Under the pieces are notes generated by a model. That model had not been told where the DNA came from. It ran no database searches and saw only the letters and a program-made list of their open reading frames with translations. A DNA stretch of 33,230 nucleotides from Desulfobacula sp. (GTDB lineage: Bacteria > Desulfobacterota > Desulfobacteria > Desulfobacterales > Desulfobacteraceae). Below, piece by piece: positions 3,199 through 25,329 of the stretch. The number at the start of each line of letters is the position of its first letter. The first letter of the stretch is position 1. Both the position numbers and the translations under genes were made by a program. The DNA lies in NCBI RefSeq assembly GCF_014237455.1, contig NZ_JABZFL010000066.1, positions 1 through 33,230 on the forward strand, given 5' to 3'.

Positions 3199-4410
3199 TT
3201 AAAATTTATCATAAAAGATCATGTCGTCTTCTACACCGAGGTCATATAATGCAGTGATAATGGCATTGATCATGGGGGGCGGGCCGCAAAGGTAGAATTC
3301 TATCTCTGTGGGATCCTCATGTTTGCAAAGATAAGCATCACACAGATGGGTGTGGATAAATCCGGTCAGACCATCCCAGTGGTCTTCTTCGTCTGGATTT
3401 GAAAGAGCGACATGATAGGTGAAATTATCATGTCTTTTTTCAAGGTCCTTGAAAACATCGTCATAAAACATCTCTTTTTTAGATCTGGCGCCATACCAGA
3501 AAGAGACTTTCCGATTTGAATGGGCCCCGTCAAGCTGGTGGAGGATGTGGCTTCTTAAGGGGGCCATGCCCGCACCGCCGCCGACAAAACACATTTCATT
3601 GTCTGTATCTTTGGCCATGAAATCGCCGTAAGGACCGCTGATGGTTACCTTGTCCCCGGGTTCCAGGCCGAAAATATAGGAGGACCCGAATCCCGGCGGG
3701 AGGCCTTGTGTTCCCGGTGGCGGGGTGGCAATCCTGACATTCATCATCATGATTTTATTATCATGGGGCGGGTTGGCAAGAGAGTATGCTCGAAATCCCG
3801 ATTTAATGCCCTTTGCGGCGAGTTCCAGAAAATTGTATTTTTTCCATTCACTCACATATTTGCTTTCAATATGAAAGTCTTTGAACATCAGATCATATTC
3901 AGGCACATCAATCTGGATATAGGCACCAGCCTTAAAATCAATGGGGGTTGCAGGTTTGAGTACCAGTTCTTTGATAAAGGTGGCTACGTTATGATTTGAT
4001 ACCACTGTGGCATCGACTTTTTTGATTCCGAATATGGACTCGGGTATTTTTATCTGAAGGTTATTTTTTACTTTCAACTGGCAGGACAGGCGCTTGTTGG
4101 CAAGTTTGTCTTTTCTTGTGAGATGGGCAAGTTCTGTGGGCAGGATGCTGCCGCCGCCTTCAATGATTTCACACTTGCACATGCCGCAGGAGCCTGAGCC
4201 GCCGCAGGCAGAGGGCAGGAAAATATCTTTCTGGGACAGGGCCGATAACAGGGATGGATTGCCGGAAATCTTTAAGGTTTCATCTTTATTGCCATTGATG
4301 GTGATTTTAAATTCACCCGAGCTTGTCACCTTGGATTCAACAAAGAGGAGCACTGTAACAAGGATCAGAATCACCCCTGTAAAAACCAGTATGCTTAAGA
4401 TGTATAACAA
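3199..4410 (-). CDS. nqrF: Na+-translocating NADH:quinone oxidoreductase subunit F
   Basis: NADH-oxidising entry subunit of Na+-NQR: hydride passes from NADH to FAD, then to a 2Fe-2S cluster and onward to the membrane subunits. Residues 3-24 are one N-terminal membrane helix. A plant-type 2Fe-2S domain follows with C69, C75, C78 and C110 (CGGSGSCGMC). The FAD-binding motif is RAYSLAN; the NAD-binding half has GGGAGMAPLRSH and the YLCGPPPM signature. At 403 aa it is of normal length. The start is TTG at 4410, supported by AAGGAGAG 8 nt upstream; this ribosome-binding site overlaps the stop of nqrE. Last gene of the nqrABCDEF operon. The presence of NqrF and NqrA rather than RnfB/C/G separates it from an Rnf complex. 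Confidence 0.96.
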   Translation of the reverse strand: MLYILSILVFTGVILILVTVLLFVESKVTSSGEFKITINGNKDETLKISGNPSLLSALSQKDIFLPSACGGSGSCGMCKCEIIEGGGSILPTELAHLTRKDKLANKRLSCQLKVKNNLQIKIPESIFGIKKVDATVVSNHNVATFIKELVLKPATPIDFKAGAYIQIDVPEYDLMFKDFHIESKYVSEWKKYNFLELAAKGIKSGFRAYSLANPPHDNKIMMMNVRIATPPPGTQGLPPGFGSSYIFGLEPGDKVTISGPYGDFMAKDTDNEMCFVGGGAGMAPLRSHILHQLDGAHSNRKVSFWYGARSKKEMFYDDVFKDLEKRHDNFTYHVALSNPDEEDHWDGLTGFIHTHLCDAYLCKHEDPTEIEFYLCGPPPMINAIITALYDLGVEDDMIFYDKF

Positions 4411-10802: not shown

Positions 10803-13379
10803 TCAGGACGGCAATGGCATCACTTTTCTGTACACCTGGTCAAAGGGCAGTTTATTTCCATCAATTGTTAAGAGATCGGTTTCAACGGAAATACCGAAGA
10901 GTTTTTCGTTTTCCTTTAAGTATGGAAGGATCAGTTCCCAGTCAGCGCCTGTTACTTCGGTAAACACACCGCCGTTTAAGTGTTCGTCCACAACCTTGCA
11001 TTCAGGGTCTCTTAGATAAATGGCTCCGCCCGAAGCAAGGGAGAACAGGTTTGATCCGGGATACGGCATGATAAGATCCATCACCTTGCCGTTCTCATCA
11101 AAGGTAATACCGTTGACAATGACAAAGCCGCCACCTTTCAAAGGATCACCTGCCATAAAAGATTGTGCAAGGTAATCAAGGCATGTACCATTGATGACAA
11201 CCCTTGGTTTGCCGGTGGCATTGATCAGGGGACGGCCTGCTGCATTGCCCAGAATATAGACATTACCGCCTTTGGCACCATACATAAAGGTTTGTCCCAC
11301 ATCGCCATGAACGACAAATTTGCCGCGTTTCATGATCTGTCCCAGCTGATCCTGGGCATTGCCGTGGACATGGATCTCCATGCCGTCAATACCCGAGGCC
11401 ATATAATCACCTGAACTGTCGTACACATCAAATCGAACATCATTAGAATCAGGCCCAAACCCGCAGCCGGTAAACCGCTGACCTTTGTATCCATAACAGA
11501 TATATTGCTTCCATCCCATCCGATAGGCCTTATTAATCATTCTGGAATCACAGTCTTTCCCTTCAGGTTCAAACTCTTTTGCATTCACAACAAGGATTTT
11601 TTCATTCCCTTGAGGGGCTCTTAAATCCTTTCTGCTTGAACGGTCTATATAGACGTACAGGCTGTTTTTATTCTCCCTGATTTTGGGAGAGGATTTGAAA
11701 ATGGCCGTAAGGCTTTCTCTTATGATCTGGAGGACAGAACTTCGTTTTTTATTACCGGTTGGGAAAATCCTGTCATTTAAGTGGGTTAACAGATCAATGG
11801 CCGTGGTCTTTTTGTCATCGTTCTCTTTTGTCAGGATTTCCAGTGTCTCGCAGATAAGCCTGATGTCCTGGAAATCAAGTTCCGCAAATTGGGAAGTGCA
11901 GTATTGTTTTAATGTCGGCAAATCATTTGTATTAAAGAAGTCTGTAATTTTCCGGGTCAGGGTGTTTTCTTTAAAAGAATCTGAAAGATTGATGGCTGTG
12001 TCAAAATGAATCTGGCCTTCCGGGGTCTGAACAATGTCACCAAATTTGTTCTGGGTAATGAGTTTTTTGGAGCCGTCCCCTTTTCCAGAATCCTTGATGG
12101 TAAAGGTAAATGCACCGCCGTCTGTGGAACTTCCGCCACGGGCATTCCAGTATTTATCGGCAATGGGGCAAAATCGTTTGTCTTCTGCGGCTATGCTTTG
12201 CAAGGTGGCATCAATGGCCTGTTTTTCAGAGCAGACAAGGCCGATCTGAACATCTTCGGTTTCCTGGAGGGCAAATACCTGGGGTCTGAGCATGGCGGTG
12301 TCTGTGATTCCGATCAACTGCATCAGATCCTGATACGGGTCATTTCTGGCAATAATAAAAAACCAGGGTCCGTCCGGGGAGCCTGTCATGTGCTGGGACT
12401 GGATATACTTGTAAACCTGCTGCTTTTCAGGGGGCAGGCAGTCAAAATCATATTCCGTGGTCGGTGCCAGGGCTTCGATGATATATTCCAAAGGATATTC
12501 AAATACCCGATTGTATAAATCCAGCAGCAGAACAGAGGTTTCCGTATCTGTAAGGAACTGGGGAAAAATATTGTACTGGTTTAGATACTCACATACGGCA
12601 TGATAATTGGCAAAATCTCCATTATGGACAAGGGCTTCATGCATGCCTGAAAACGGATGGGCACCCCCGGGATGCCAGAGCCGTCCCCGGGTTGGATACC
12701 GCTGATGGGCAATCCATCCATGGGCCCTGAAATCATCCAGGCAATAATATTGTGTGGCCTGTTCGGCATAGCCAACCACCTTCAGGATCATCACGTTTCT
12801 GGCATGGGACAATACAAACGCCTGTTTTTCTCCAAGGGAAGCATAATAGGTCTGGTTCAGACGATTGGAATTCTGGAAGACAAATTCATCCTCTGCTTTT
12901 CTCCTGTCCATATTGTTTAACTGATTCGCCTGGATAAATTTATCCAGCACATCCGGGCGCACCCTTACAAAATACCGCCATACATCCGGTGGTTTGACTT
13001 CAAGGCCAATAGATGTGTAATCATCAATAGTGGGTATTTTTTCAGATTTATAGATATCAAACACAGGGTTGATGTTGGTGGACTCCACCTTAAGGATGGC
13101 ATCCTCATCCAGATATGCCACCTGCAGAAGATAATGGTCTTCAAGCACATCTTGAGGCACCCCAAGATCGCTTGCACTTAAACCGACAGCCGCGATGCCG
13201 CCGCCTTTGCCGTTACCCCTGTTATGCATCTGAACCGAGGGTTCGTAAATATGACGTCCTGCAATGGGAATGGATGCCATGAATCCGGTTACCCCGCAGC
13301 CGCCTTCTTCATTACATTTGTTCACCGGTGTTTTGATGTGGGGCAGCCGGCCTCTTGAAGCCAGTATGTTTTTTATCAT
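10803..13379 (-). CDS. gltB-like: glutamate synthase-like protein: class II glutamine amidotransferase fused to GXGXG domain
   Basis: 858 aa. Residues 28-420 are a class II glutamine amidotransferase: the nucleophile C28 (CGVTGF) would be exposed by removing a 27-residue propeptide, and LSHARNV, HQRYPTRGR and VHNGDFANY are the expected glutamine-site motifs. Residues about 640-820 are the right-handed beta-helix GXGXG domain of the glutamate synthase alpha subunit (HVHGNAQDQLG, MYGAKGGNVYILGNAAGRP). The FMN/TIM-barrel synthase domain that lies between these in bacterial GltB is missing and is encoded separately by the next two genes upstream, as in archaeal split glutamate synthases. It should release ammonia from glutamine for reductive amination of 2-oxoglutarate. 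AAGGA is 9 nt before the ATG. Last gene of the mvhD operon. Confidence 0.88.
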   Translation of the reverse strand: MIKNILASRGRLPHIKTPVNKCNEEGGCGVTGFMASIPIAGRHIYEPSVQMHNRGNGKGGGIAAVGLSASDLGVPQDVLEDHYLLQVAYLDEDAILKVESTNINPVFDIYKSEKIPTIDDYTSIGLEVKPPDVWRYFVRVRPDVLDKFIQANQLNNMDRRKAEDEFVFQNSNRLNQTYYASLGEKQAFVLSHARNVMILKVVGYAEQATQYYCLDDFRAHGWIAHQRYPTRGRLWHPGGAHPFSGMHEALVHNGDFANYHAVCEYLNQYNIFPQFLTDTETSVLLLDLYNRVFEYPLEYIIEALAPTTEYDFDCLPPEKQQVYKYIQSQHMTGSPDGPWFFIIARNDPYQDLMQLIGITDTAMLRPQVFALQETEDVQIGLVCSEKQAIDATLQSIAAEDKRFCPIADKYWNARGGSSTDGGAFTFTIKDSGKGDGSKKLITQNKFGDIVQTPEGQIHFDTAINLSDSFKENTLTRKITDFFNTNDLPTLKQYCTSQFAELDFQDIRLICETLEILTKENDDKKTTAIDLLTHLNDRIFPTGNKKRSSVLQIIRESLTAIFKSSPKIRENKNSLYVYIDRSSRKDLRAPQGNEKILVVNAKEFEPEGKDCDSRMINKAYRMGWKQYICYGYKGQRFTGCGFGPDSNDVRFDVYDSSGDYMASGIDGMEIHVHGNAQDQLGQIMKRGKFVVHGDVGQTFMYGAKGGNVYILGNAAGRPLINATGKPRVVINGTCLDYLAQSFMAGDPLKGGGFVIVNGITFDENGKVMDLIMPYPGSNLFSLASGGAIYLRDPECKVVDEHLNGGVFTEVTGADWELILPYLKENEKLFGISVETDLLTIDGNKLPFDQVYRKVMPLPS

Positions 13380-13405: not shown

Positions 13406-14962
13406 TTATAAAATCATTTTGTACCCGGGTGCGGGCTGGTATCTTTTTTGGTCGTCTTCATCCAGATAATCAAGGTGCACCAGAAGATCTGAACGGCCCT
13501 TGAGCTCTTTAATGCTTTTTAATCCGTAGGTTCTCAGGATATCGCACCATTGTTTGCGCCAGGCCATATACATGTTGACAAGACGTTGTTCCACATATTT
13601 TTCGTCGATCATGTTTCCCAGTTCCGGATCTGTGGTGGCTATTCCTCTGGCACATCCCCGGCCGCTTTCGCAATTTCCGCATCTGACACATTCAACTGCC
13701 ACAAGATCAGCCGTTCCGATGACACATCCGTCTGCACCAAGGGCGATAGCCTTTGCCACATCAAGGGCGTTCCTGATGCCGCCGCTGGCGATCAGACAGA
13801 TCTTGTCTCTTGCCCCTTCTTCCACAAGGAATTTGTGAACTTTTGGGATGGCATATTCAATGGGCATGGCAATATTCTTTTTGGCAATGTCCGGGGCTGC
13901 ACCCGTACCGCCGTAACTGCCGTCAATGTGAATGATATGGGCACCGGCATGATAGGCGCCTATGGCAACCATGTCCACATCCGTGGGGGTGGATACTTTT
14001 ATGGAGCACAGGACATTATGGTTAATTTCCTTCATCCAGTCCACATGCTTTTTATGGTCTTCAACCGAATAGACGGAGTGGAAAGGGAAGGGTGAGAAAA
14101 GTGAGCTTCCCACAACGGTTTCCCTCATTTTGGCAACGGCTTCAGTAACCTTTTCACCTAAAAGATGGCCGCCAAGGCCGGGTTTTGCGCCCTGGGCATA
14201 TTTAAATTCCATGATCGGGCACTGCTGGATGGTTTCTTCTCTGACACCGAAGAGCCCTGTGGCAACCTGGGTAATCACATGCTCTTTATAGGGAAGGAAC
14301 TCGGGCGGATATCCACCTTCACCGGTACAGGTGAGAGTATTGAGTTTTTTTGCAGCCCTTGCCCGTCCGATAATAACCGATAACGCGGTTGAACCATAGG
14401 ACATTCCGCCGCCGTAACAGGGCATGGAAATGGTCTTTTGGGGTCGGTCGTCTCCTGTTTTATTTAAGTCAATGCCGGTATCAATCTCTTCATCACTGAT
14501 ATCTATGGCCAAATCGGGGTCCGGTTCAATAAACCGTATCTTGTCAAACCCGCCGCCTGAGTTGCCAAGATTATACTCAAGTCCTACATGGGGTGCATTA
14601 CCTGTTTCTGCCATGGCAAAATGGCCCAGCAGCATTTCAGATGTCCAGCGGTAATCTCCCATGGTGTCCAGCAAAGCATTGTCTTTGAGCACCAGGGCAT
14701 CTTCCGGGCAATGTTCAATGCAGTAATGGTCTGTTTGCTTGCAGTCAAACCCGATACATTTATGCTCAATCGGTCTGAATGGCGATGCATGATTATCCGG
14801 CATAATGTGAACCCCGTACGGGCAGATATCTGCACATTTCCCGCAGGAGATGCAGTTTGAATTCCGTTTAATAATATATTTGCCTATGGTATTGCGAAAC
14901 CGTGACGGGGTTTCATGGATTTCGGGCAATTGATGTTTAACCTGATCTTTAATTGGGTTCAT
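13406..14962 (-). CDS. gltB-like: FMN-dependent glutamate synthase catalytic subunit with N-terminal 2x4Fe-4S
   Basis: 518 aa. An N-terminal ferredoxin domain has C37, C40, C43, C47 and C69, C74, C81, C85. Then comes the glutamate synthase TIM barrel (about residues 150-470) with intact active-site landmarks: SMPCYGGGMSYGS, the glycine loop DGSYGGTGAAP, the phosphate-binding LIASGGIRNALDVAKAIALG, and a cysteine cluster CVRCGNCESGRGC where the 3Fe-4S site of GltB lies. It should condense the ammonia supplied by the amidotransferase protein with 2-oxoglutarate, taking electrons through its clusters. 26 nt upstream of the amidotransferase gene and 3 nt downstream of its paralogue. No gltD (NADPH subunit) is present in the window. 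Confidence 0.9.
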   Translation of the reverse strand: MNPIKDQVKHQLPEIHETPSRFRNTIGKYIIKRNSNCISCGKCADICPYGVHIMPDNHASPFRPIEHKCIGFDCKQTDHYCIEHCPEDALVLKDNALLDTMGDYRWTSEMLLGHFAMAETGNAPHVGLEYNLGNSGGGFDKIRFIEPDPDLAIDISDEEIDTGIDLNKTGDDRPQKTISMPCYGGGMSYGSTALSVIIGRARAAKKLNTLTCTGEGGYPPEFLPYKEHVITQVATGLFGVREETIQQCPIMEFKYAQGAKPGLGGHLLGEKVTEAVAKMRETVVGSSLFSPFPFHSVYSVEDHKKHVDWMKEINHNVLCSIKVSTPTDVDMVAIGAYHAGAHIIHIDGSYGGTGAAPDIAKKNIAMPIEYAIPKVHKFLVEEGARDKICLIASGGIRNALDVAKAIALGADGCVIGTADLVAVECVRCGNCESGRGCARGIATTDPELGNMIDEKYVEQRLVNMYMAWRKQWCDILRTYGLKSIKELKGRSDLLVHLDYLDEDDQKRYQPAPGYKMIL

Positions 14963-14965
14963 AAA

Positions 14966-16384
14966 TTATCCTACATCTATAGATACTTTTCGTTCACCAA
15001 AAATCGGTGCAAAACTCTCTTTTTCAAGATCCTCAAACCACATGGAGCGCCCGACTTCACCTCGAAGACGTCTGGCTTCCCTTAATCCCATGGCACCCAG
15101 CATTTCAAGCATCTGGTTTCGCCAGGCTCCCATGAGATTTATGATCCTGTTGCTGCCGTATGCAGGATCTATGCTTTCCAGTTCAACAGGACAGGACAGA
15201 CCCTTTCTGCACCGGTCGCACAGGCGGCATTCCATGGCAATAAGAAGGGGCCGGTCAATGGCAACCCCGTCTGCACCGCAGATAATGGATTTATTTACAT
15301 GTTCGGCCATACAGATTCCGCCGGATGCAATGATATTGATCTGCTGACGTGTGCCGGCATCAACCAATGCCAGATGGATATCCCGTAACATATCCTTGAT
15401 AAATCGCGGGTTGTCAGACTCAAACTCCCTGCCATGCGCGTCGGCATAGACATGGATGGTATCGATATCGGCTTTTGAAAGTTCAACACAGATGGCGGCA
15501 TAGTCAAGATTCGCCCTGAGGCTCACGCCGACGCTGATAACAAGTTCTTCATTCATGGCCTTTAACGCCCCAAAGACTTTTTCAATCCCCGGTTCGTATT
15601 CGATTTCTACCATATCAACACGGGTCAGAAGCGTTGGATAATTTTGAAAAGTATCTTTTTTAACCAGAGGGATGATGACGGGTCCAAACGGCATCAGATT
15701 TTCATACACATCGGCTGCATTAATAAACATTTTTGTCCCGATGGTTTGAGCGGCTTTCAGCATGGAGATAAGGACTTTCTTGCTTAATACACCAAAATCC
15801 GGCTGCTGGAACAGAATGGGAAGCGGGATTTCGAGGATGGGTTTTACCTCAACGGCAAGAGACCCGTCCTTATTAAAGGTGAGTCTTTCCGGTCGTCTTG
15901 AAAGCTCTATACAGGTATTAATATATTCCCGGCCATGGATTCCGTCCCGGGTGGGCCGGACAATCTCAGACATGTCTGTCCACATGGAATCAAAGCCCTT
16001 TCCCGCAAAAGGGCCCCTGTATCCGGCACCCGATACCGGAACGCTTCCGGTATGGGCCTGGCACCAGGTTCGCCCCAGGACATCCGGTGTCCAGTAGTCA
16101 TCTCCGATTTCCCGATATTCAGGATTGACAACCCGGGAAAAAATGCCTTTGGTACATTCCTGGATACACCTGAAACATGAATTGCAGGTGTAGAGATATT
16201 CAGGCTCATCCATCTGGCTCATATGAAGATAATTGTCCTTGAAGATGTCATACACGCATTTTTTCTTAACACACTCCTTGCAGCTGCCGGCACAGTCTTC
16301 CCTGAATTCTATGGTGGCATATTTGCCCACAGGATAAAATCTTGGCGGTGCAGCCTTGGTGCTGATATTATATTTTTGAGGCAT
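14966..16384 (-). CDS. second glutamate synthase-domain paralogue with N-terminal 4Fe-4S motifs, active site divergent
   Basis: 472 aa, same architecture as the 518-aa neighbour: ferredoxin-like cysteines C31, C35, C38, C43 and C67, C70, C73, C77, then a glutamate-synthase-type barrel with IIASGGICMAEHVNKSIICGADG and a terminal cluster motif CRLCDRCRKGLSC. The glycine-rich GGTGA loop that contacts FMN and substrate is absent; the equivalent position reads HVYADAHGREFESDN. It therefore probably keeps iron-sulfur clusters and perhaps flavin but does not make glutamate in the usual way. It may serve as an electron-transfer or structural partner. GGGGAAG before the ATG. 20 nt after metF. Confidence 0.85.
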   Translation of the reverse strand: MPQKYNISTKAAPPRFYPVGKYATIEFREDCAGSCKECVKKKCVYDIFKDNYLHMSQMDEPEYLYTCNSCFRCIQECTKGIFSRVVNPEYREIGDDYWTPDVLGRTWCQAHTGSVPVSGAGYRGPFAGKGFDSMWTDMSEIVRPTRDGIHGREYINTCIELSRRPERLTFNKDGSLAVEVKPILEIPLPILFQQPDFGVLSKKVLISMLKAAQTIGTKMFINAADVYENLMPFGPVIIPLVKKDTFQNYPTLLTRVDMVEIEYEPGIEKVFGALKAMNEELVISVGVSLRANLDYAAICVELSKADIDTIHVYADAHGREFESDNPRFIKDMLRDIHLALVDAGTRQQINIIASGGICMAEHVNKSIICGADGVAIDRPLLIAMECRLCDRCRKGLSCPVELESIDPAYGSNRIINLMGAWRNQMLEMLGAMGLREARRLRGEVGRSMWFEDLEKESFAPIFGERKVSIDVG

Positions 16385-16404: not shown

Positions 16405-17313
16405 TTATTTCAGGCTGGCCTGTTCCACAATCTGACCCACGGCTTCTTCCCATTCAATGGCCATGATATGTACGCCATGAACCCCATTTGTTTCTTTTAG
16501 TTCTTCAATGGTCTCCAGGCAGATTTTAATGCCTTCATCTGCCTGGCTTTTTTTGTCAACGCCATCCATTCGTTTGATAATGCTTTCAGGAACATCCATA
16601 CCGGCAACCTTATTATTCATGTACCTTGCCATACCGGCGGATTTTAACGGGGTGATCCCCCCAAGGATGTAAACTTTATCTGTCAGGCCTTGTTCACTGG
16701 CCAGCCTGATCCACTCTTTAAATCGATCCATATTATAAATACACTGGGTCTGGATAAAATCAGCACCGGCATCAATCTTTTTGGCCAGCCGGATTACGCG
16801 GTATTCAAAGGGGTCGGCAAAGGGATTGGCAGCCGCACCAATGAACATTCGGGGTGCCACATCCAGATCAAATCCGCTCATGTCCTTACCCGTATCGCGC
16901 ATGTCCTTCACCGTCCGGATCAGGTTGACCGAGTCGATGTCAAAGACATTCATGGCATCGGGCTGACTGCCGAATTTCTGGTGATCTCCGGACAGGCATA
17001 AAATATTTCTAATCCCTAAAGAATACGCCCCCATGATATCCGATTGAATGGCAATCCGGTTTCTGTCTCTGACCACCATCTGCATCACAGGTTCCAGTCC
17101 TGCGGCAACCAGATGGGCCGAGGCCGCTATACTGGACATCCTGACAATGGCCGTCTGATTGTCGGTGACATTTACTGCATCCACAAATCCTTGCAGCAGT
17201 TTGATTTTTTTATCAATTACCTTAACGTTCGCACCTCTTGGGGGGCCGCATTCTCCTGTTACCGCAAATTCACCACTGGCCAGTTTTTCATGGAGATGGC
17301 TGTAAGTTTTCAT
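16405..17313 (-). CDS. metF: methylenetetrahydrofolate reductase
   Basis: 302-aa MetF TIM-barrel flavoprotein interconverting methylene-THF and methyl-THF, a step of the methyl branch of the Wood-Ljungdahl pathway and of methionine synthesis. Family motifs: FAVTGECGPPRG at the start (with the catalytic Glu), VNVTDNQTA, LCLSGDH (pterin/flavin site), and the ADFIQTQCIYNMDRF and LGGITPLKS segments. It overlaps metV by 4 nt (ATGA), which suggests that the two proteins are made in fixed ratio. MetVF-type reductases receive electrons through MetV rather than directly from NAD(P)H, fitting the presence of MvhD. Confidence 0.95.
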   Translation of the reverse strand: MKTYSHLHEKLASGEFAVTGECGPPRGANVKVIDKKIKLLQGFVDAVNVTDNQTAIVRMSSIAASAHLVAAGLEPVMQMVVRDRNRIAIQSDIMGAYSLGIRNILCLSGDHQKFGSQPDAMNVFDIDSVNLIRTVKDMRDTGKDMSGFDLDVAPRMFIGAAANPFADPFEYRVIRLAKKIDAGADFIQTQCIYNMDRFKEWIRLASEQGLTDKVYILGGITPLKSAGMARYMNNKVAGMDVPESIIKRMDGVDKKSQADEGIKICLETIEELKETNGVHGVHIMAIEWEEAVGQIVEQASLK

Positions 17314-17990
17314 ATGATATGGTCCTCCCTGATCAATTTTCTGGGTCCGCCGGAAAGACTGGTATTCCAGTTTTTTGGAGGGATATAGGTTTTCAGATTA
17401 TCCAGTTGCCCTAAAGTGGTCAGCCGTTCAATAATCAGGTGCCACGCACACGGGGTATCCGGATCAATTTCACAAAAGCCCTTCTGGGAACCGCCGCAGG
17501 GACCGTTTAAGAGTTTTTTGGCACATCGGGTGACAGGACATATGCTTCCGAATGTTGCAAGACTGCAGTTTCCGCACCCGGAGCATTCTTCAGTGAAAAT
17601 GCCGGGACTTTCCTGAATTCCGATAAATGTTGTATTCAGACCGGGCAACACCACTTCTTTGGCAAACCGTTTTGCCATGGCCTGAACACCGGCACCACAG
17701 GCAAGGGAAAGGACGGCATCATTTCTGGCAATGCCGGGTGATGCTTCCTGGATAAATTCATTTTCACACTGGCGTTCAATGGTCAGCTCTTCTATTTCAA
17801 TGGGCCGGGCCATTTTTTTAAAACTGAGCTTGAGGGCGGATGCGAGGACGGCAACCTCATCTTCGCCACCGGCAAAGCATGTTTTTACACAGGTGCCGCA
17901 CCCTAGAATTAAAAGCTTTTTATAAGGTTCCACAAGTTCAATAATTTCATTTATGGGTTTTTGACTGGCGGTTATCATTTTGTGCTCCAT
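17310..17990 (-). CDS. metV: MetV-like zinc/iron-sulfur partner of MetF (MTHFR C-terminal domain protein)
   Basis: 226 aa, cysteine-rich. N-terminal region has CGTCVKTC (C31, C34, C38); the C-terminal half carries CSGCGNC, then CPVTRC and GPCGG, features of the MTHFR C-terminal domain family whose members bind two 4Fe-4S clusters and zinc and feed electrons to MetF. The start is uncertain between ATG 17990 and ATG 17978; GGAG lies 6 nt before the latter, giving a protein beginning MITASQKP (222 aa). Between this gene and mvhD there are 165 nt containing a large palindrome, but both are on the same strand and probably in one operon. Confidence 0.9.
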   Translation of the reverse strand: MEHKMITASQKPINEIIELVEPYKKLLILGCGTCVKTCFAGGEDEVAVLASALKLSFKKMARPIEIEELTIERQCENEFIQEASPGIARNDAVLSLACGAGVQAMAKRFAKEVVLPGLNTTFIGIQESPGIFTEECSGCGNCSLATFGSICPVTRCAKKLLNGPCGGSQKGFCEIDPDTPCAWHLIIERLTTLGQLDNLKTYIPPKNWNTSLSGGPRKLIREDHII

Positions 17991-18015
17991 TTCTTGGACG
18001 TGGTTGAGAAAAAGA

Positions 18016-18125
18016 TCAGATTAAAGCAAGGCTATGTTTTAATATGTCTTTGGTTTCATTGAACAGGGGAGTGGTACACAATGAAATCAAAATTTTAAAA
18101 AAAGATAGCCTTGCTTTAAACCTGA
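18016..18125. repeat. nested palindromic element inside the mvhD-metV intergenic region
   Basis: TTAAAGCAAGGCTAT (18021-18035) and its exact reverse complement ATAGCCTTGCTTTAA (18105-18119) form a perfect 15-bp stem. The pairing continues outward with TCAG/CTGA across a one-base bulge to 18016 and 18125. Inside, TTTCATTG (18053-18060) pairs with CAATGAAA (18079-18086). The whole could fold as one long RNA arm. There is no T-run of terminator type after it. It might be a small mobile palindromic element (MITE/REP-like) or an RNA processing/stabiliser structure setting different levels of mvhD and metVF. Confidence 0.75.
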
Positions 18126-18155
18126 CTTTTTATAATAACATCAACAGGGATGGTA

Positions 18156-18560
18156 TTAATTAAAATGATTTAAAGCAGGATTCGGGCCGATCGTTTCAAG
18201 CTCCGATATCGTGGTTTTTATAATATCTTTAATCGGCCCGCTGTCTTTTGCAGCGGTGTTGAATATGTTCAATCGTCTGCCATCCATTCCAATATCATCC
18301 AGGATGGTTTTTACATAATCAACCCGTTTTCTTGCCCGTATACTGCCTTGGGCATACCGGCAGCCCTCTTCCTTGCAGACCAGAACAAGGACCGCATCGG
18401 CGCCTGATTCAAAGGCCTTTAAAAGGTGGATATCCTTTGTCATTGAGGAGCATGGCATTTTAACGGTTTTAATCGTACAACCGTCAACCATTGAATCCGT
18501 TTCTTCAAAAGAATTTAAACAATGAAACAGCGTAAGTTTTGGTGTGTTGTTAATTTTCAT
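18156..18560 (-). CDS. mvhD: MvhD-like iron-sulfur electron-transfer protein
   Basis: 134 aa. Related to MvhD, the 2Fe-2S subunit that links F420-non-reducing hydrogenase or other donors to heterodisulfide reductase. Recognisable are the GADAVLVLVCKEEGCRYAQGS segment and the RARKRVDYVKTILDDIGM helix. Cysteines are C14, C28, C37, C62 and C67; the N-terminal CxxC seen in many MvhD proteins is reduced to C14 alone, so cluster ligation may differ. As first gene of the operon it probably passes electrons to or from MetV and perhaps the iron-sulfur glutamate synthase proteins. GGGAAG lies before the ATG, immediately downstream of the leader terminator. Confidence 0.88.
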   Translation of the reverse strand: MKINNTPKLTLFHCLNSFEETDSMVDGCTIKTVKMPCSSMTKDIHLLKAFESGADAVLVLVCKEEGCRYAQGSIRARKRVDYVKTILDDIGMDGRRLNIFNTAAKDSGPIKDIIKTTISELETIGPNPALNHFN

Positions 18561-18582
18561 TTTTTCTTCCCAAAATTAAAAT

Positions 18583-18664
18583 AAAAAAGGCATTCGCCCA
18601 GTAATGTTGGGAAAACGCCTTTGTTTTCTTTTAATTTTGCCAATACGCCTTTGTATTTAGCTAT
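18583..18664 (-). promoter_or_regulatory. ANTAR-type tandem-hexaloop antiterminator leader of the mvhD operon
   Basis: On the minus-strand RNA three elements follow each other. Hairpin 1 (18657 to 18642) is AATAC-AAAGGC-GTATT. After a 13-nt linker, hairpin 2 (18628 to 18611) is GAAAAC-AAAGGC-GTTTTC, a perfect 6-bp stem. Both loops are the same hexamer with A at position 1 and G at position 4, as required by ANTAR proteins. A terminator uses 18622-18608 and 18600-18586 as arms (14 of 15 positions pair, with two G-U wobbles that exist only in minus-strand RNA), a 7-nt loop and a U-rich tail UUUUUUAUUUU. Its 5' foot AAAGGC is the loop of hairpin 2, so hairpin 2 and the terminator exclude each other. 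The mvhD ribosome-binding site follows at once. Confidence 0.88.
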
Positions 18665-18670
18665 GATCTC

Positions 18671-18699
18671 AAGCTAAAATTTATTTCATAGAATGTCAA
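18671..18699 (-). promoter_or_regulatory. promoter of the mvhD-metVF-glutamate synthase operon
   Basis: Minus strand: TTGACA (18699 to 18694), a 17-nt spacer, and TAGCTT (18676 to 18671). Transcription would begin near 18664, giving a leader of about 100 nt that contains the tandem hexaloop hairpins and terminator. A perfect -35 box suggests constitutive initiation, with control left to antitermination. Confidence 0.75.
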
Positions 18700-20537: not shown

Positions 20538-21263
20538 CTAAGACGACTCATCATTAAAGATTTCACTGGAGAGGATTACCGCTTCCGCCACTTCACGGAT
20601 AGATTTTCTTGAGTCCATGCTTTTTTTTCGTATCCAGCCATAGGCTTCATTGCCGGTCATCTTACGGTTATGCATGAGAAGTTCCTTGGCCTGTTCTATC
20701 TTTTTGCGGGCTTCCAATTCCTCCTGAATCACTTTGGTTTTAACCATAAGTTCCGTATTAACAATGGCGATAGCAGATTGATTGGCAACAGCCCTTAAAA
20801 GATTGACTTGTGTATCGGGAAAGTCATGGGGTTCGGATGTAAAACAGTTTAAAACTCCAATGACTTTTTCGTCTTTTGTTTTTAAAGGAATTCCGACCAT
20901 GGAGACCAGACCCAGTTTTTTGGCCATTTCTTTTTCTTTGAACCGCTGGCTTTTTAAAACATCCTTCAGGATCAAAGGCTTTTTGTGGGTCACCACCCAC
21001 CCCACAACGCCTTCATCTAAATCAAGATCCCGGTCCTTGATATAATCCGGTGAAATGGACTGGGTTGCCTTAAGGCGTATTTTGGGCGGTTTTTCCTCCT
21101 CATCGACAATCCATAAGGAACAGATTTCAACACCGGTAACCTTGGCGGTTACCATGACAATCAGCTTTAACAGGTCCTCAATAAACAGGTCCGAGGTGAT
21201 TGCCCGGCTGATATCGGTCAATGCTTTTATATAGCGGTCGTATGTCGGGTCCAGTTTTTCCAT
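20538..21263 (-). CDS. GAF-ANTAR transcription antiterminator
   Basis: 241 aa, soluble. Residues about 15-170 form a GAF sensor domain (VEICSLWIVDEE, GVVGWVVTHKKPLILKDV, SMVGIPLKTKDEKVIGVLNCF, LLRAVANQSAIAIVNTEL). A short coiled coil (IQEELEARKKIEQAKELLM) leads into an ANTAR RNA-binding domain (residues about 180-235) with the signature GNEAYGWIRKKSMDSRKSIREVAEAVI. ANTAR proteins dimerise and hold tandem hexaloop hairpins to prevent terminator formation. The matching RNA target lies at 18583-18664, before mvhD. No receiver domain is present, so the signal is probably a small molecule or redox state sensed by GAF; several cysteines are present. 42 nt downstream of the NifX-like gene and probably co-transcribed with it. 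Confidence 0.93.
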   Translation of the reverse strand: MEKLDPTYDRYIKALTDISRAITSDLFIEDLLKLIVMVTAKVTGVEICSLWIVDEEEKPPKIRLKATQSISPDYIKDRDLDLDEGVVGWVVTHKKPLILKDVLKSQRFKEKEMAKKLGLVSMVGIPLKTKDEKVIGVLNCFTSEPHDFPDTQVNLLRAVANQSAIAIVNTELMVKTKVIQEELEARKKIEQAKELLMHNRKMTGNEAYGWIRKKSMDSRKSIREVAEAVILSSEIFNDESS

Positions 21264-21305: not shown

Positions 21306-21698
21306 TCAGTGATGGTGTCCGCAGCCGCCTTCCTTTTTGTTCTTTTTTGTTTGACAGAAGTCAAATATATGGAACAGCTTGAGTTCATCTTTCTCAAAAA
21401 GCTTCAGATTTTCCAGAATGGTGTTTTTTCGGGCCTGATAAACTTTTATATTTGATGACATAAGACTTCTCTGGGACCCGTCTCCCATGCACCGGGTAAC
21501 AACGGCATCGACCCGATCCTCTTTTTTGAATACACCGATTTTACACGTAGGTCCTTCATCTGAAAGTTTCCGGTTTTCCTTGAGTTCAAGTTTCCGGGTT
21601 TTCAGGTCTACAATTAAAAAAATTTCAGAAACACCGAAATGGTCATCGATGATACTCTCCAATCCCTTGTTTTTTTTAACAGGAAAGGCTACCTTCAT
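21306..21698 (-). CDS. NifX/NifB-like (dinitrogenase iron-molybdenum cofactor family) protein
   Basis: 130 aa. Matches the NifX/NafY/NifB C-terminal fold that binds metal-sulfur cofactors or precursors: KVAFPVKKNKGLESIIDDHFGVSEIFLIVD at the start and VDAVVTRCMGDGSQRSLMSSNIKVYQA in the middle. The tail ends GGCGHHH, a likely metal-binding appendage. Strong ribosome-binding site GGAGGGATG before the ATG. It lies between an acyl-CoA dehydratase activase and a GAF-ANTAR regulator, so it may serve iron-sulfur cofactor handling or redox sensing. No nitrogenase genes are in the window, so a nitrogen-fixation role is not implied. Confidence 0.85.
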   Translation of the reverse strand: MKVAFPVKKNKGLESIIDDHFGVSEIFLIVDLKTRKLELKENRKLSDEGPTCKIGVFKKEDRVDAVVTRCMGDGSQRSLMSSNIKVYQARKNTILENLKLFEKDELKLFHIFDFCQTKKNKKEGGCGHHH

Positions 21699-21796
21699 TA
21701 CATCCCTCCAAAAAAATAATCAATATATTAACTCTCTTATACCAAAAACCGGTTTAAAAGATAAGGATTTATTTTGTAATGACAAGCAAGATTTTT

Positions 21797-22588
21797 TTAT
21801 CCGTAAATTTTTTCAAAGCCAATAATTGCTGCACCCAGGGCACCTATGATATCCGGTGTTTCAGGAGTGTTTATTTTTTCAAGATTCATGCTTTCTGCAA
21901 TGGCTTTTACCACACCCTTGTTCCGCGCCACACCACCGGACATGGAGACGGTAAGGCCGTCAATATTTCTGGCCACCCGTTTGACAAGGGAATTGGTCCT
22001 TGCTGCAATGGACCTGTTAAGTCCTTTTGCAATCTCTTTCTGCTCGGTACCGCAGGCAATCAGTGAGATGACTTCACTTTCAGCAAATACCGTACACATG
22101 CTGCTGAGGACAAGGTCACTTGTCGCTCCTTTATCCAGGTCTCCCAATTCGGTAATATCCACTTCCAGAGCCCTTGCCATGGCTTCCAGAAATCTGCCGG
22201 TTCCTGCAGCACATTTATCATTCATGGCAAAATCCACCACATTCCCGTCCGGATCAAGGCGCATGGCTTTGCTGTCCTGTCCTCCGATATCAATGAGAAT
22301 CCGTGTCTCCGGGATCACATGTTTTATTCCCTTTGCATGACAGGTGATCTCAGTGACTGCAGCATCTTTTTCTTTGACCCGGGCTCTCCCATATCCGGTG
22401 GCGATAATGGATCGGATATCCTTTTCCATAATTCCTGCTGCATCAAGGACGTTCTTTTTCGCACGGGCAATGGACTCGATGTTTTTCGCTCCGGTGAGGA
22501 TTACCGATGAGGCCAATATGTTTTTTTCTTCATCAATCAATACGGCATCACAGGAAAGACTGCCGATATCAATACCAAGGAAAATCAT
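21797..22588 (-). CDS. hgdC-like: 2-hydroxyacyl-CoA dehydratase / benzoyl-CoA reductase-type activase (archerase)
   Basis: 263-aa ASKHA-fold ATPase that binds one 4Fe-4S cluster between the two subunits of a homodimer and uses ATP to push a low-potential electron into its partner dehydratase. Seen: GIDIGSLSCDAVLID (phosphate 1), IDIGGQDSKAM, NDKCAAGTGRFLE with C126, LSSMCTVFAESEV with C165 (the usual cluster ligands), and SGGVARNKGVVKAI. Length is normal for HgdC/BcrA-type single-domain activases. 38 nt downstream of the dehydratase subunit gene. Start ATG 22588 has AAGGAGAAAATGT just before it. Confidence 0.94.
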   Translation of the reverse strand: MIFLGIDIGSLSCDAVLIDEEKNILASSVILTGAKNIESIARAKKNVLDAAGIMEKDIRSIIATGYGRARVKEKDAAVTEITCHAKGIKHVIPETRILIDIGGQDSKAMRLDPDGNVVDFAMNDKCAAGTGRFLEAMARALEVDITELGDLDKGATSDLVLSSMCTVFAESEVISLIACGTEQKEIAKGLNRSIAARTNSLVKRVARNIDGLTVSMSGGVARNKGVVKAIAESMNLEKINTPETPDIIGALGAAIIGFEKIYG

Positions 22589-22626
22589 TACATTTTCTCC
22601 TTAATCAAAGTTTAAAATAAATTTTT

Positions 22627-23835
22627 CTAAGAAAGCATTTCCAAAAAGGCTTCTACCCGGGTTTCTATCTGGCCCCTGGCAAGATTCCTCGAATCCACAC
22701 AATCGATTTCAAGGTTCAGTACAGGCACATTAATGTCTTTAAATCCTTTTGAAATCAGCCCTCTTGTACCTGTTCCCTGGCGGCATCCCCAGTGGCAGGG
22801 GTTAATGGCCCCGTCAATCCGATATTCTCCGGCAAGAGTCTGTATGTGTTTGATCCGTTCTGTTGTGTCCATGCTAAAGGGAATTGAAATCATTCTTTTT
22901 GCAATGCTCTCAAAAGGATTGTCCGGATCCATTGGTTCCCAGGTGACATCATTGAGTTCATCCACTACAATTTTAGCCCCAAGATCATCAAGCATCTCAT
23001 TGATGGGAAAGGGATACTGAATCCTGTTCTGTATCCACATCAGCCTTGTTTTTTCTTTTGAGGAAGTATGCTGGCCCGTTTCAATCCTGTGATTTAATTC
23101 ATTTTTAAATGCCTGGCAGATATCAACCCCCTGCTGTGTGCCCATCATAAGGGTTATTACCGTACTGAAATCCTTTAAAAGATTGTTGTCAACAGGAGAT
23201 GGTTTTGTTTTGGCAAGATCATAAATTTCTTTTAAGAGCGTGCTTGAGGCGTTGAAATTTTCCAGGGCAATGCCAAGCTTTTCTTTTGATAACGGCCTTT
23301 TGGTATGATCAGACACAAAAAGAGTCATGTCTTCAAGCTGGGCCGCCAGATATTTTATCGCATCCTGTGTATAGTTCTGGGGTACGTTTAAAATGAAAAA
23401 GTCCTTTTTATACTGGTGTGCAAAATTTTCCATAACGGCAAGGCCGGCTGTGCAGGGGCTGCTGGTCCCGATTATGAAATCAGGTTTAGGCATGGCATTC
23501 TTCAATACCGCTCCCATGACCGCCCTGTGATAAGCGCAGGAATCTGTTGCAAACCCTGAATCTTCCGCTTCTTCAAAAAAACCCCCGGCCGTTTGCGTTG
23601 AAGAGAGCATGGCACCGACAAATTCAACAAAACATGAAGTGATTCCCATGGCACCTAAGAGATCAAAAGGAGCTGTTACGCCGCACCATGCAATGGTTTC
23701 ATCTTCGGAATAAAGTTTTTTCCCCAGTTTGGACAGTTCCAGTACATATTTTTTTTTGGCATTGATGCCTTCAGGGTCCTGGTTTAGTTTGTCTGTTATC
23801 CCTTTTACTGCATTCTCAAAATGATCGTACATCAT
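22627..23835 (-). CDS. 2-hydroxyacyl-CoA dehydratase family subunit (HgdA/BcrB-like)
   Basis: 402 aa. Iron-sulfur subunit of the HgdAB/BcrBC family, which performs radical dehydration or ring reduction on CoA thioesters after activation. Conserved cysteines that would bind a 4Fe-4S cluster: DSCAYHRA, GTSSPCTAGLAV and NPCHWGCRQGTGTRG. I start it at ATG 23835 (1 nt after the preceding stop, preceded by GGGGGTG) rather than at an in-frame codon at 23868 inside the upstream gene; ATG 23832 is equally possible. The substrate cannot be deduced. Partner of the 347-aa subunit and activase. Confidence 0.88.
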   Translation of the reverse strand: MMYDHFENAVKGITDKLNQDPEGINAKKKYVLELSKLGKKLYSEDETIAWCGVTAPFDLLGAMGITSCFVEFVGAMLSSTQTAGGFFEEAEDSGFATDSCAYHRAVMGAVLKNAMPKPDFIIGTSSPCTAGLAVMENFAHQYKKDFFILNVPQNYTQDAIKYLAAQLEDMTLFVSDHTKRPLSKEKLGIALENFNASSTLLKEIYDLAKTKPSPVDNNLLKDFSTVITLMMGTQQGVDICQAFKNELNHRIETGQHTSSKEKTRLMWIQNRIQYPFPINEMLDDLGAKIVVDELNDVTWEPMDPDNPFESIAKRMISIPFSMDTTERIKHIQTLAGEYRIDGAINPCHWGCRQGTGTRGLISKGFKDINVPVLNLEIDCVDSRNLARGQIETRVEAFLEMLS

Positions 23836-23836
23836 A

Positions 23837-24880
23837 TTACACCCCCAGCATTTCTGTAAACGCTTCAATTCTTGTCTGCTGCTGCCCCATAGATCCCATG
23901 GTGCAGTCTCCTTCCAGCATAAGGAAGGGAATGGATTCTTTCTGAAGGGCCTGCCTGATCATGGGAATCCTGGCAAGGTAGGGATCGCAGAATTTTAAGG
24001 TAAACCCGATAACGCCCCTTGCATTACTTTTTTTTGCCCGTTGAACAATTTTTTGGGCGATGTCGCCGGGCTTTGCGGTATCCATGGTTCTTGCACAAGG
24101 TGTCTGCTCCATATATGAACTTGCCAGAGCTCTGAAGATATTATCGTCTGCCGTGGTGTCCACTGGTGTGATAAACCGTGAAGTGGTGCAGAAATCACTG
24201 GCAGTCACATGCACGTTCCATTCTTCGAAAAGATCAAACACCTTTGGATCAAACAAAAGATTCCCAAAAAGAAAAACGGGCGCCAGGCCGGCCTTAGCAG
24301 GTTCTTCAGGCTGAAGTTCCTTTTGGGCCATTGCCAGAGCCTTGTCTGTTGACTCTGTCGCTGCTGTATTGATGATTTGTTGAAGCCCGGAAGCATATCC
24401 CGGGAAATAATCTCGGGACATTTTTTTTTCGATTTTTTTAACTGAGGCAGCAACAAGATTCCAATTGTCGATTTTATCTTTTATTTTTTTTATAGAAAAG
24501 GGTTCATTGTTCCATCTGAAAAGGGTTTTAGCCAGGCGTTCATACTCTTTTGAAAGAAAATCAAGGCTTAAGCTGTTTGTTCCGGAAGGAAGGTCTACCA
24601 GGATAATCGGGTCATCAGGTTTTGCCTCATGCCAGGCATCGGCCAGCCGCCGCATGGAATCACAGGAATTGATAAAAATCAACCCGTCAAGTTCCGGAAG
24701 GTCATCTGCAAGGGCCCGGTCAAGTACTTTTTTGACATGGGGGCACAAATTGTCGTGAAGCAGGTGACCTGCCTGATCTGGCGCCTTTGAATCAGGGAAA
24801 ATCCTGAAAGGGGAAAACCCGGCCGCTTCAATTAAAGGGACCGGTGTATAGGCGCAGGTAAACCCGATTTTTTTGTTCAT
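23837..24880 (-). CDS. 2-hydroxyacyl-CoA dehydratase family subunit (HgdB/BcrC-like)
   Basis: 347 aa, same superfamily as the 402-aa neighbour, supplying the second iron-sulfur subunit of the heterodimer. Typical signs: FTCAYTPVPLIEAAGFSPFR at the start, the cysteine sites DNLCPHVKK and INSCDSMRR, LVDLPSG, GFTLKFCDPYLARIP and the terminal LMLEGDC...QQQTRIEAFTEML. Its start overlaps the stop of the marR gene by 4 nt (ATGA), indicating translational coupling. Family call is firm; whether the complex dehydrates a 2-hydroxyacyl-CoA, reduces an aryl-CoA or does another low-potential reduction is unknown. Confidence 0.88.
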   Translation of the reverse strand: MNKKIGFTCAYTPVPLIEAAGFSPFRIFPDSKAPDQAGHLLHDNLCPHVKKVLDRALADDLPELDGLIFINSCDSMRRLADAWHEAKPDDPIILVDLPSGTNSLSLDFLSKEYERLAKTLFRWNNEPFSIKKIKDKIDNWNLVAASVKKIEKKMSRDYFPGYASGLQQIINTAATESTDKALAMAQKELQPEEPAKAGLAPVFLFGNLLFDPKVFDLFEEWNVHVTASDFCTTSRFITPVDTTADDNIFRALASSYMEQTPCARTMDTAKPGDIAQKIVQRAKKSNARGVIGFTLKFCDPYLARIPMIRQALQKESIPFLMLEGDCTMGSMGQQQTRIEAFTEMLGV

Positions 24881-25329
24881 TTTAATTTCTCCTTACCGCA
24901 ATTCAAAAGAATGGTGCGAAGCAGGTTTTTCGTGGTTTCAATATCCTTTTTTGAAATAGTGCAGAAGACTTTTTCAAGGGTGGCTGATACGATTTTTGTT
25001 GCGGAAACTTTGGCATCAACACCTCCTTGTGTCAAGTGAATTCTGTTTGCTCTCCTGTCGTTGGGATCGGGCTCCCGTTTTACCAGCCCGTCTCTTTCCA
25101 TGCGGTCTAAAAGCCCTGTCATGGTGGAAGGTTCAAGGCCTGCCCTCTTGCCAAGCTCGTTTGCCTTAAGCCCGTCTTTATCCCACAAGGAGAGCAGAAC
25201 GCCAAGATAGGCCGGCCTTATTGTGCTGATCCCTTCATCGGCAAATCCTTTTTTCAAATGGGATGTTACGGCAAGTGTAGCCCGGGAAAGCAAATAATAC
25301 GGGCAGTCGGGCGGAAGCGGCAAATTCAT
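24877..25329 (-). CDS. MarR-family transcriptional regulator
   Basis: 150-aa winged-helix dimeric regulator. The DNA-binding part reads LKANELGKRAGLEPSTMTGLLDRMERDGLVKREPDPNDRRANRIHLT (about residues 53-100), with the conserved wing D-x-R. It is the first gene of the operon with the two dehydratase subunits and the activase and overlaps the next gene by 4 nt, so it probably represses the whole operon including itself until a ligand, perhaps an aryl or acyl-CoA compound, is bound. GAGAGG lies before the ATG. A perfect palindrome in the promoter is the probable operator. Confidence 0.93.
   Translation of the reverse strand: MNLPLPPDCPYYLLSRATLAVTSHLKKGFADEGISTIRPAYLGVLLSLWDKDGLKANELGKRAGLEPSTMTGLLDRMERDGLVKREPDPNDRRANRIHLTQGGVDAKVSATKIVSATLEKVFCTISKKDIETTKNLLRTILLNCGKEKLK

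Follow-up and report, generated by a model that had tools for sequence, protein, structure and literature searches.

A conserved dual-hexaloop leader in Desulfobacula and its relatives, very likely an ammonium-assimilation switch acting by GAF-ANTAR antitermination

The RNA leader in front of the mvhD gene of a Desulfobacula sp., found in a 33,230-nt stretch of DNA (the window, below), is very likely an antitermination switch for ammonium assimilation, the reader of which would be a GAF-ANTAR protein predicted to bind the RNA. The architecture of the leader, its conservation and covariation, its phylogenetic and positional linkage with ANTAR genes and the identity of the genes that follow it were observed directly. 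On this basis we hold with high confidence that the leader is an attenuation switch read by the neighbouring GAF-ANTAR protein, which would bind the RNA, favour read-through in response to a nitrogen-type signal and run a small regulon serving glutamate formation. The elements of the leader and the proposed regulator are as follows.

18694-18699, minus strand: putative -35 element TTGACA, recognized by eye and present at the same place in most orthologous leaders
18671-18676, minus strand: putative weak -10 element TAGCTT, recognized by eye, at a 17-nt spacing from the -35
18642-18657, minus strand: hairpin P1, AATAC-AAAGGC-GTATT, 5 bp, perfect, with hexaloop AAAGGC at 18647-18652; seen in the sequence and located by script, conserved and covarying
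18611-18628, minus strand: hairpin P2 (antiterminator), GAAAAC-AAAGGC-GTTTTC, 6 bp, perfect, with hexaloop AAAGGC at 18617-18622; conserved and covarying
18583-18622, minus strand: intrinsic terminator, mutually exclusive with P2, the loop AAAGGC of P2 pairing with GCCTTT at the 3' end of the terminator
18558-18571, minus strand: ribosome-binding site and start codon of mvhD, GGGAAGAAAAAATG, read from the sequence and located by script
20538-21263, minus strand: GAF-ANTAR gene, the proposed regulator (ANTAR domain PF03861, 66.8 bits for a cut-off of 27.3)

A sequence-only reading of the window had placed two hairpins with identical AAAGGC hexaloops (A at position 1, G at position 4) before mvhD, the second loop doubling as the 5' foot of a terminator. 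Both hairpins were located and both are perfect, and the terminator does begin with the P2 loop. Its stem folds with 14 pairs, two of them the G-U wobbles that had been described, plus one U.C mismatch; the claim of full pairing goes a little too far. The predicted stability of the terminator alone is -17.2 kcal/mol. For the 82-nt leader, the terminator form is predicted at -19.9 kcal/mol versus -6.6 kcal/mol for the dual-hairpin form; with the terminator favoured by 13 kcal/mol, the leader would be off unless a protein holds P2. The fold of the 141-nt region has a z-score of -3.7, only 2 of 200 shuffles being equally stable. A consensus promoter scanner missed the -35/-10 pair.

The P1 and P2 stems lie 13 nt apart, the linker reported for ANTAR targets being of about 2-25 nt (PMC8164766, passages covered). 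Also found in the leader are the other traits of a dual-hexaloop ANTAR target: stems of at least 3 bp, hexaloops with A1 and G4, overlap of P2 with a terminator, and covariation. A rule-based scan for two A..G hexaloops and an overlapping terminator gave a single match on the two strands of the window, the mvhD leader; when 600 Markov-shuffled versions of the whole window were scanned, six matches appeared, and in none were the two loops identical. No Rfam family reached its gathering score in the window, and an Rfam-listed element was therefore rejected as the identity of the leader.

The switch would operate as follows. By default, the nascent RNA would fold the terminator at 18583-18622 and transcription would stop before mvhD. 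The GAF domain would receive a signal, most likely nitrogen status (2-oxoglutarate is a guess), and an ANTAR dimer would bind the P1 hexaloop, then the P2 hexaloop. Once bound, P2 would stay folded, its 3' arm and loop being kept out of the terminator, and read-through would allow transcription of the six-gene operon mvhD-metV-metF-gltA-gltB-gltC. The same protein would control at least two further leaders in its own genome, and would in that way run a small regulon centred on glutamate formation.

To follow the leader in relatives, we searched 58 genomes, the own one among them, with the MvhD protein and kept the 20 top-scoring loci (L002-L021, 122 bits or more); the presence of an ANTAR gene was not a selection criterion. 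Two hexaloop hairpins precede mvhD in 19 of the 20 orthologous loci (own included; those of L018 were placed by eye), the exception being L017, a 53% identical orthologue with no recognizable leader upstream. A mechanical scan found dual hexaloops at 18 of 20 orthologues versus 1 of 10 paralogues (L022-L031), and dual hexaloops with an overlapping terminator at 15 of 20 versus 0 of 10. In the 19 leaders, whose loops were chosen in part with an A..G rule, 18 copies of P1 and all 19 of P2 have A1, and G4 is there in 19 of 19 for both. Stem cells are paired in 94.7% of cases (at most 63% for slid structures) and 6 of the 11 pairs show changes on both sides; further pair types are no more frequent than in shuffles (230/500). 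This is the outcome of the covariance check that the sequence-only reading had proposed, and the features whose loss it had set down as a refutation, A1, G4 and stem pairing, are kept.

A covariance model, R1, was trained on the 19 mvhD leaders only. A second one, R2, was trained on 61 hits, including the three of the own genome and ANTAR-adjacent loci. In this larger set, 91.3% of stem cells are paired and 7 of 11 pairs changed on both sides; four of five covariation measures beat 500 of 500 shuffles and the fifth was reached by 18 of 500, a result that leans towards covariation since the hits were fitted to the model. In one leader (G006:C131), position 4 of the P1 loop is A, not G. Under a relaxed rule, an overlapping terminator was found in 53 of 59 related leaders versus 97 of 2950 random positions, and a hairpin folds there in the six failing leaders too; under a strict rule, the figures were 37 of 60 versus 17 of 3000. 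Position 3 of the loop is A in 57 of 60 copies of P2, and U in 34 of 60 copies of P1. The bias to A in P2 is as expected if its loop can also pair with the GCCUUU of the terminator, which the P1 loop need not do. Locus L111 (3678-3793) suggests stacked attenuators: its first terminator is followed by a third hexaloop hairpin, AAGACAAAGGCGTCTT, at 3778-3793.

The leader goes with ANTAR genes. With R1 (E<=0.01), it was found in 29 of the 39 genomes with an ANTAR gene versus 2 of the 19 without, among the 58 (Fisher 4e-6). R2 (1e-3) gave 33 of 39 versus 3 of 19 (Fisher 6e-7), counts on close relatives that are not independent because the training took in ANTAR-adjacent loci. The three leader-bearing genomes in which no ANTAR gene was found (G007, G016 and G023) are 56-81% complete. 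At E<=0.1, two weak hits without ANTAR were added, in G032 (R1, 0.06) and G053 (R2, 0.06); the former, seen with R1 only (23.9 bits), was rejected as it has no second hairpin by eye.

A wider set of 158 genomes of at least 90% completeness was drawn from the phylum. The leader is present in 18 of them, all 18 with an ANTAR gene, for a total of 66 ANTAR genomes (P = 3e-8), 65 of which have the domain above the Pfam cut-off; removal of the three genomes shared with the set of 58 left 15 out of 15 (P about 4e-7). The other 48 ANTAR genomes show no leader that the model finds at the threshold used, and may have ANTAR proteins of a different type. The 16 phylum loci that were inspected have, as first gene, a glutamate-synthase-family gene (11), mvhD (2), a GdhA relative of 32% identity (1) or a gene whose protein reads by eye as PII (1), one more being an apparent false hit. 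Hexaloops kept at mvhD orthologues, covarying stems and phylum-wide co-occurrence all support the claim that the leader has the known ANTAR-target architecture.

Linkage is also positional. R1 matched 36 of 80 GAF-ANTAR loci at E<=1; the 44 with no match at that threshold include many short contigs. Among the 35 matched loci that were drawn, all but L132 have the leader on the strand of the ANTAR gene and on its 3' side; in these 34, the leader is followed by mvhD (7), by a glutamate-synthase-family gene (26) or by a GltB stretch (1). Some genomes, G004 and G021 being examples, have the leader and the ANTAR gene on separate contigs. In the window, one divergent deaD-type helicase gene separates the leader operon from the GAF-ANTAR gene.

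The PF03861 match of this gene bears out the sequence-only reading, and no other ANTAR domain was found in the own genome (3.48 Mb, 97.8% complete). The domain can be aligned with those of EutV, NasR, AmiR and Rv1626. An AlphaFold2 model, built on an alignment of 31 sequences (block pLDDT 77-94 over residues 151-240), has C-terminal helices at 150-200, 204-218 and 222-239, the first continuous with a coiled coil. The 50 Foldseek matches listed were to GAF-containing proteins, PtsP GAF domains ranking near the top; as these matches rest on the GAF part, the ANTAR fold is supported by the model and the sequence. Among 79 proteins compared, R186, K187, W210, M216 and R219 are invariant, position 208 (here Y) is F or H in 29 and position 212 (here R) is Q in 55. 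Sequence and fold both place PtsP GAF domains among the nearest matches to the GAF domain of our protein, and NifA also matches, below the family cut-off. Since PtsP and NifA are nitrogen-linked proteins, our guess for the signal is 2-oxoglutarate or a PII-type one.

On the 5' side of the GAF-ANTAR gene (21306-25329, minus strand) are genes for a Nitro_FeMo-Co domain protein, a BadF/BcrA-type activase, two HGD-D (2-hydroxyglutaryl-CoA dehydratase D-component family) proteins and a MarR regulator. Many Desulfobacula-type loci carry, about 2.5 kb 5' of the ANTAR gene, a further protein with ferredoxin and glutamate synthase domains, 27-30% identical to gltB (for instance L064, 5957-7516); no R1 leader match was found at this gene.

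In the own genome, R1 gave two strong sites and a weak one, which reads by eye as a dual hexaloop with terminator; three other R1 hits (C93, C39 and C107, 17.7-18.8 bits) were dropped on score. R2 gave three sites, of 63.3, 60.5 and 41.2 bits, the next match being at 17.5. The best precedes the mvhD operon of the window and the third precedes a 552-aa glutamate-synthase-family protein (PF01645). The second precedes a 146-aa protein whose N-terminus is signal-like and which matches nothing in Pfam or NCBIfam; there (L151, 7660-8100, contig C96), a similar copy of leader and promoter lies before the secreted-looking protein, homologues of which have a leader in G006, G011 and G025.

Over the 58 genomes, R2 (E<=1e-3) gave 58 sites, with mvhD as the first gene in 19, a glutamate-synthase-family gene in 29, gdhA in 2, GltB in 1, a class IV aminotransferase gene in 1, the gene of this small protein in 4 and a contig end in 2. 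By this tally, 52 of the 56 readable leaders precede an mvhD operon or a glutamate-synthase-type, gdhA or aminotransferase gene. Weaker hits added a gdhA leader in three more genomes; the two full-length gdhA genes of the own genome have no hexaloop pair upstream, unlike gdhA in five other genomes. The gdhA leaders of L196 and L203 have dual hexaloops (P2 loops AATGGT and AATGGC) followed by a ribosome-binding site, with no U-tract terminator by eye; the mechanism may thus vary, and these are perhaps a translational ANTAR variant. The hits at L255 and L232/L235 look false by eye and were set aside.

The operon that the leader precedes in the window has six genes; the names gltA, gltB and gltC were assigned in this analysis.

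18156-18560, minus strand: mvhD, FlpD/MvhD family, 134 aa (PF02662)
17310-17990, minus strand: metV, MTHFR C-terminal/DUF5981 family, 226 aa (PF12225)
16405-17313, minus strand: metF, methylene-THF reductase family, 302 aa (PF02219)
14966-16384, minus strand: gltA-like, 472 aa, diverged glutamate synthase FMN domain (PF01645, 62 bits)
13406-14962, minus strand: gltB-like, 518 aa, ferredoxin plus glutamate synthase FMN/Fe-S domain (PF01645, 296 bits)
10803-13379, minus strand: gltC-like, 858 aa, GXGXG domain and weak class II amidotransferase match (PF01493 above, PF13522 below the cut-off)

Family matches confirm the identities first proposed from the sequence, i.e. MvhD, MetV, MetF and three glutamate-synthase-like proteins. 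In the gltC-like protein, the class II amidotransferase domain (PF13522) scores 24.3 bits for a cut-off of 27, and a CGVTGF motif is seen by eye after 27 residues. Residues 203-497 of the gltB-like protein align with the synthase domain of solved GltB chains; the cysteines of the cluster region, which we take to be cluster-binding, are present, with one residue inserted relative to solved GltB. The metV and metF genes overlap by 4 nt, the gaps after metF are of 3-26 nt and that between mvhD and metV is of 165 nt. Six loci (L257, L258, L260, L261, L262 and L263) have the leader followed by genes in this same order, mvhD-metV-metF-gltA-gltB-gltC, and L259 has it as far as gltA, where the contig ends. 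The operon proteins of these loci, which belong to other genera and families, are 30-79% identical to those of the window. Given the six further MTHFR-family genes and eight further MvhD-type matches in the own genome, the operon set looks like a dedicated copy.

A long and very stable hairpin (-45.7 kcal/mol, z -7.9) folds in the gap between mvhD and metV (17991-18155, minus strand); it has a U-rich tail and occurs once in the own genome. Its apical CUCCCC is invariant in ten aligned gaps, of 21 examined; the gaps of L009, L019 and loci from more distant genera do not resemble these. An internal terminator, a stoichiometry element and a small RNA derived from the 3'-UTR are possible roles.

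Other explanations of the leader can be weighed against these data. Chance identity of two loops around an ordinary terminator might be suspected, for AAAGGC and GCCTTT-T give the impression of common terminator sequence in an AT-rich genome. We rejected it as scarcely credible: the shuffled windows gave only the 6 hits in 600, and neither stem covariation and loop conservation nor the co-occurrence statistics with ANTAR fit a chance feature. The leader could also be an ANTAR target that acts mainly on translation or RNA stability, or one on which binding promotes termination. The two gdhA leaders lacking a U-tract terminator point that way, and some ANTAR targets may act on translation (Ramesh 2012, PMC3369931, passages covered). 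In the window, however, the P2 loop is itself part of the stem of a strong terminator that lies before the ribosome-binding site; the overlap recurs in related leaders far above its frequency at random positions (53/59 versus 97/2950), and the contrast at loop position 3, A in nearly all copies of P2 and mostly U in P1, is that expected of alternating P2 and terminator. This explanation is accordingly improbable for the mvhD leader.

It is still less probable that a protein other than the GAF-ANTAR protein of the window reads the leader. Linkage is not universal, to judge from the genomes with leader and ANTAR gene split over contigs, and three genomes have the leader with no ANTAR found. Against this, the nearly complete own genome has one ANTAR domain found, all 18 leader-bearing genomes of the phylum set have an ANTAR gene, and the leader is 3' of that gene on the same strand in all but one of the 35 drawn loci. 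As to the theme of the regulon, the sequence-only reading had joined one-carbon and nitrogen metabolism. A regulon centred on the former, with the glutamate synthase genes as passengers, would be compatible with the switch and could invoke metV and metF after mvhD in 14 of 14 drawn mvhD-operon loci. The first-gene tally and the location of the MTHFR-family genes led us to reject it as distinctly improbable: a glutamate-synthase-family, gdhA, GltB or aminotransferase gene comes first in 33 of the 56 readable leaders, one-carbon genes enter the regulon only through the mvhD operon, and none of the six other MTHFR-family genes of the own genome is on a contig with its two further leader sites. 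The nitrogen and glutamate half of the original idea stands, whereas metV-metF comes in through one conserved operon and does not make one-carbon metabolism a theme; glutamate formation is the theme that the data support.

The switch itself is of an already known type, its RNA element and, by analogy, its mechanism being those of EutV, NasR and AmiR. In the eut locus of Enterococcus faecalis, the EutV leaders likewise have two short hexaloop stems with A1 and G4, P2 overlapping an intrinsic terminator (Ramesh 2012, PMC3369931; structure in PMC8934654; passages covered). Hand-mapping from the alignment of the EutV RNA contacts given in the parts of PMC8934654 covered shows 7 of 11 to be identical in the GAF-ANTAR protein (R142, K143, K149, Y164, R168, M172 and R175), EutV K147, E160, N173 and R177 being replaced by Q191, G204, D217 and S221. 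EutV is a phosphorylated receiver-ANTAR protein with ethanolamine targets, whereas a GAF-ANTAR protein and glutamate-forming genes are found here. NasR (Klebsiella nasF) resembles our protein in having a sensor domain fused to ANTAR, though the sensor is NIT in NasR and GAF here, and the leader architecture is alike for NasR and AmiR (Pseudomonas amiE). R340 and R366 of NasR are matched by R186 and R212, but W362 and N373 are replaced by Y208 and R219. AmiR senses via its partner AmiC, as opposed to a GAF domain. In the nitrogen-fixation cascade of Geobacter, a relative within the Desulfobacterota, ANTAR-type antitermination of nitrogen genes was reportedly described by Ueki and Lovley in 2010; that system is said to differ from ours in its two-component regulator and in having nif genes as main targets.

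As an ANTAR target, glutamate synthase has a precedent in the passages covered of Ramesh et al. 2012 (PMC3369931). The predicted ANTAR targets given there include glutamate synthase, P-II and other nitrogen genes, with regulons for glutamate synthase in Desulfotomaculum reducens, nitrogen genes in D. acetoxidans and nitrogenase in Pelobacter carbinolicus; the same RNA element thus lies before glutamate synthase and P-II genes, in other taxa. In the open-licence literature, covered as titles and starts of abstracts plus ANTAR passages, we found no ANTAR leader before metVF or in Desulfobacterales; the predictions of Ramesh 2012 may overlap with this order. Within that coverage, the conserved six-gene operon mvhD-metV-metF-gltA-gltB-gltC under an ANTAR-type switch was not found described.

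With a set of genes that looks like a dedicated copy and a gltB-like protein that aligns with the GltB synthase domain, the operon is in all likelihood nitrogen-regulated. Its content hints at a split glutamate synthase to which a dedicated methylene-THF reductase is coupled, with a putative electron flow between them. More tentatively, and with doubts that outweigh our belief, the six proteins might form one electron-transfer unit: MetVF with MvhD would oxidize methyl-THF (or do the reverse) and pass the electrons to the split glutamate synthase and its two flavin-type subunits, so that the sulfate reducers of this group, complete oxidizers, would fund ammonium assimilation from the methyl branch of the Wood-Ljungdahl pathway, at a rate set by the GAF-ANTAR switch according to nitrogen status. 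Gene order and leader conserved in families far apart, the six other MTHFR-family genes and the overlapping or tightly spaced genes from metV on are in line with such a unit. The redox potentials, about -200 mV for methyl-THF and about -120 mV for glutamate formation, would make the transfer feasible.

For the Desulfobacterales, which are major marine sulfate reducers, these results link ammonium assimilation with a specific regulator, an RNA target and a set of genes, on the strength of a comparative test over many genomes rather than of one locus, and the GAF-ANTAR proteins of the order gain a predicted function. The presence of a specialized methylene-THF reductase inside a glutamate synthase operon, under a nitrogen-type switch, makes the question of the glutamate synthase reductant directly testable.
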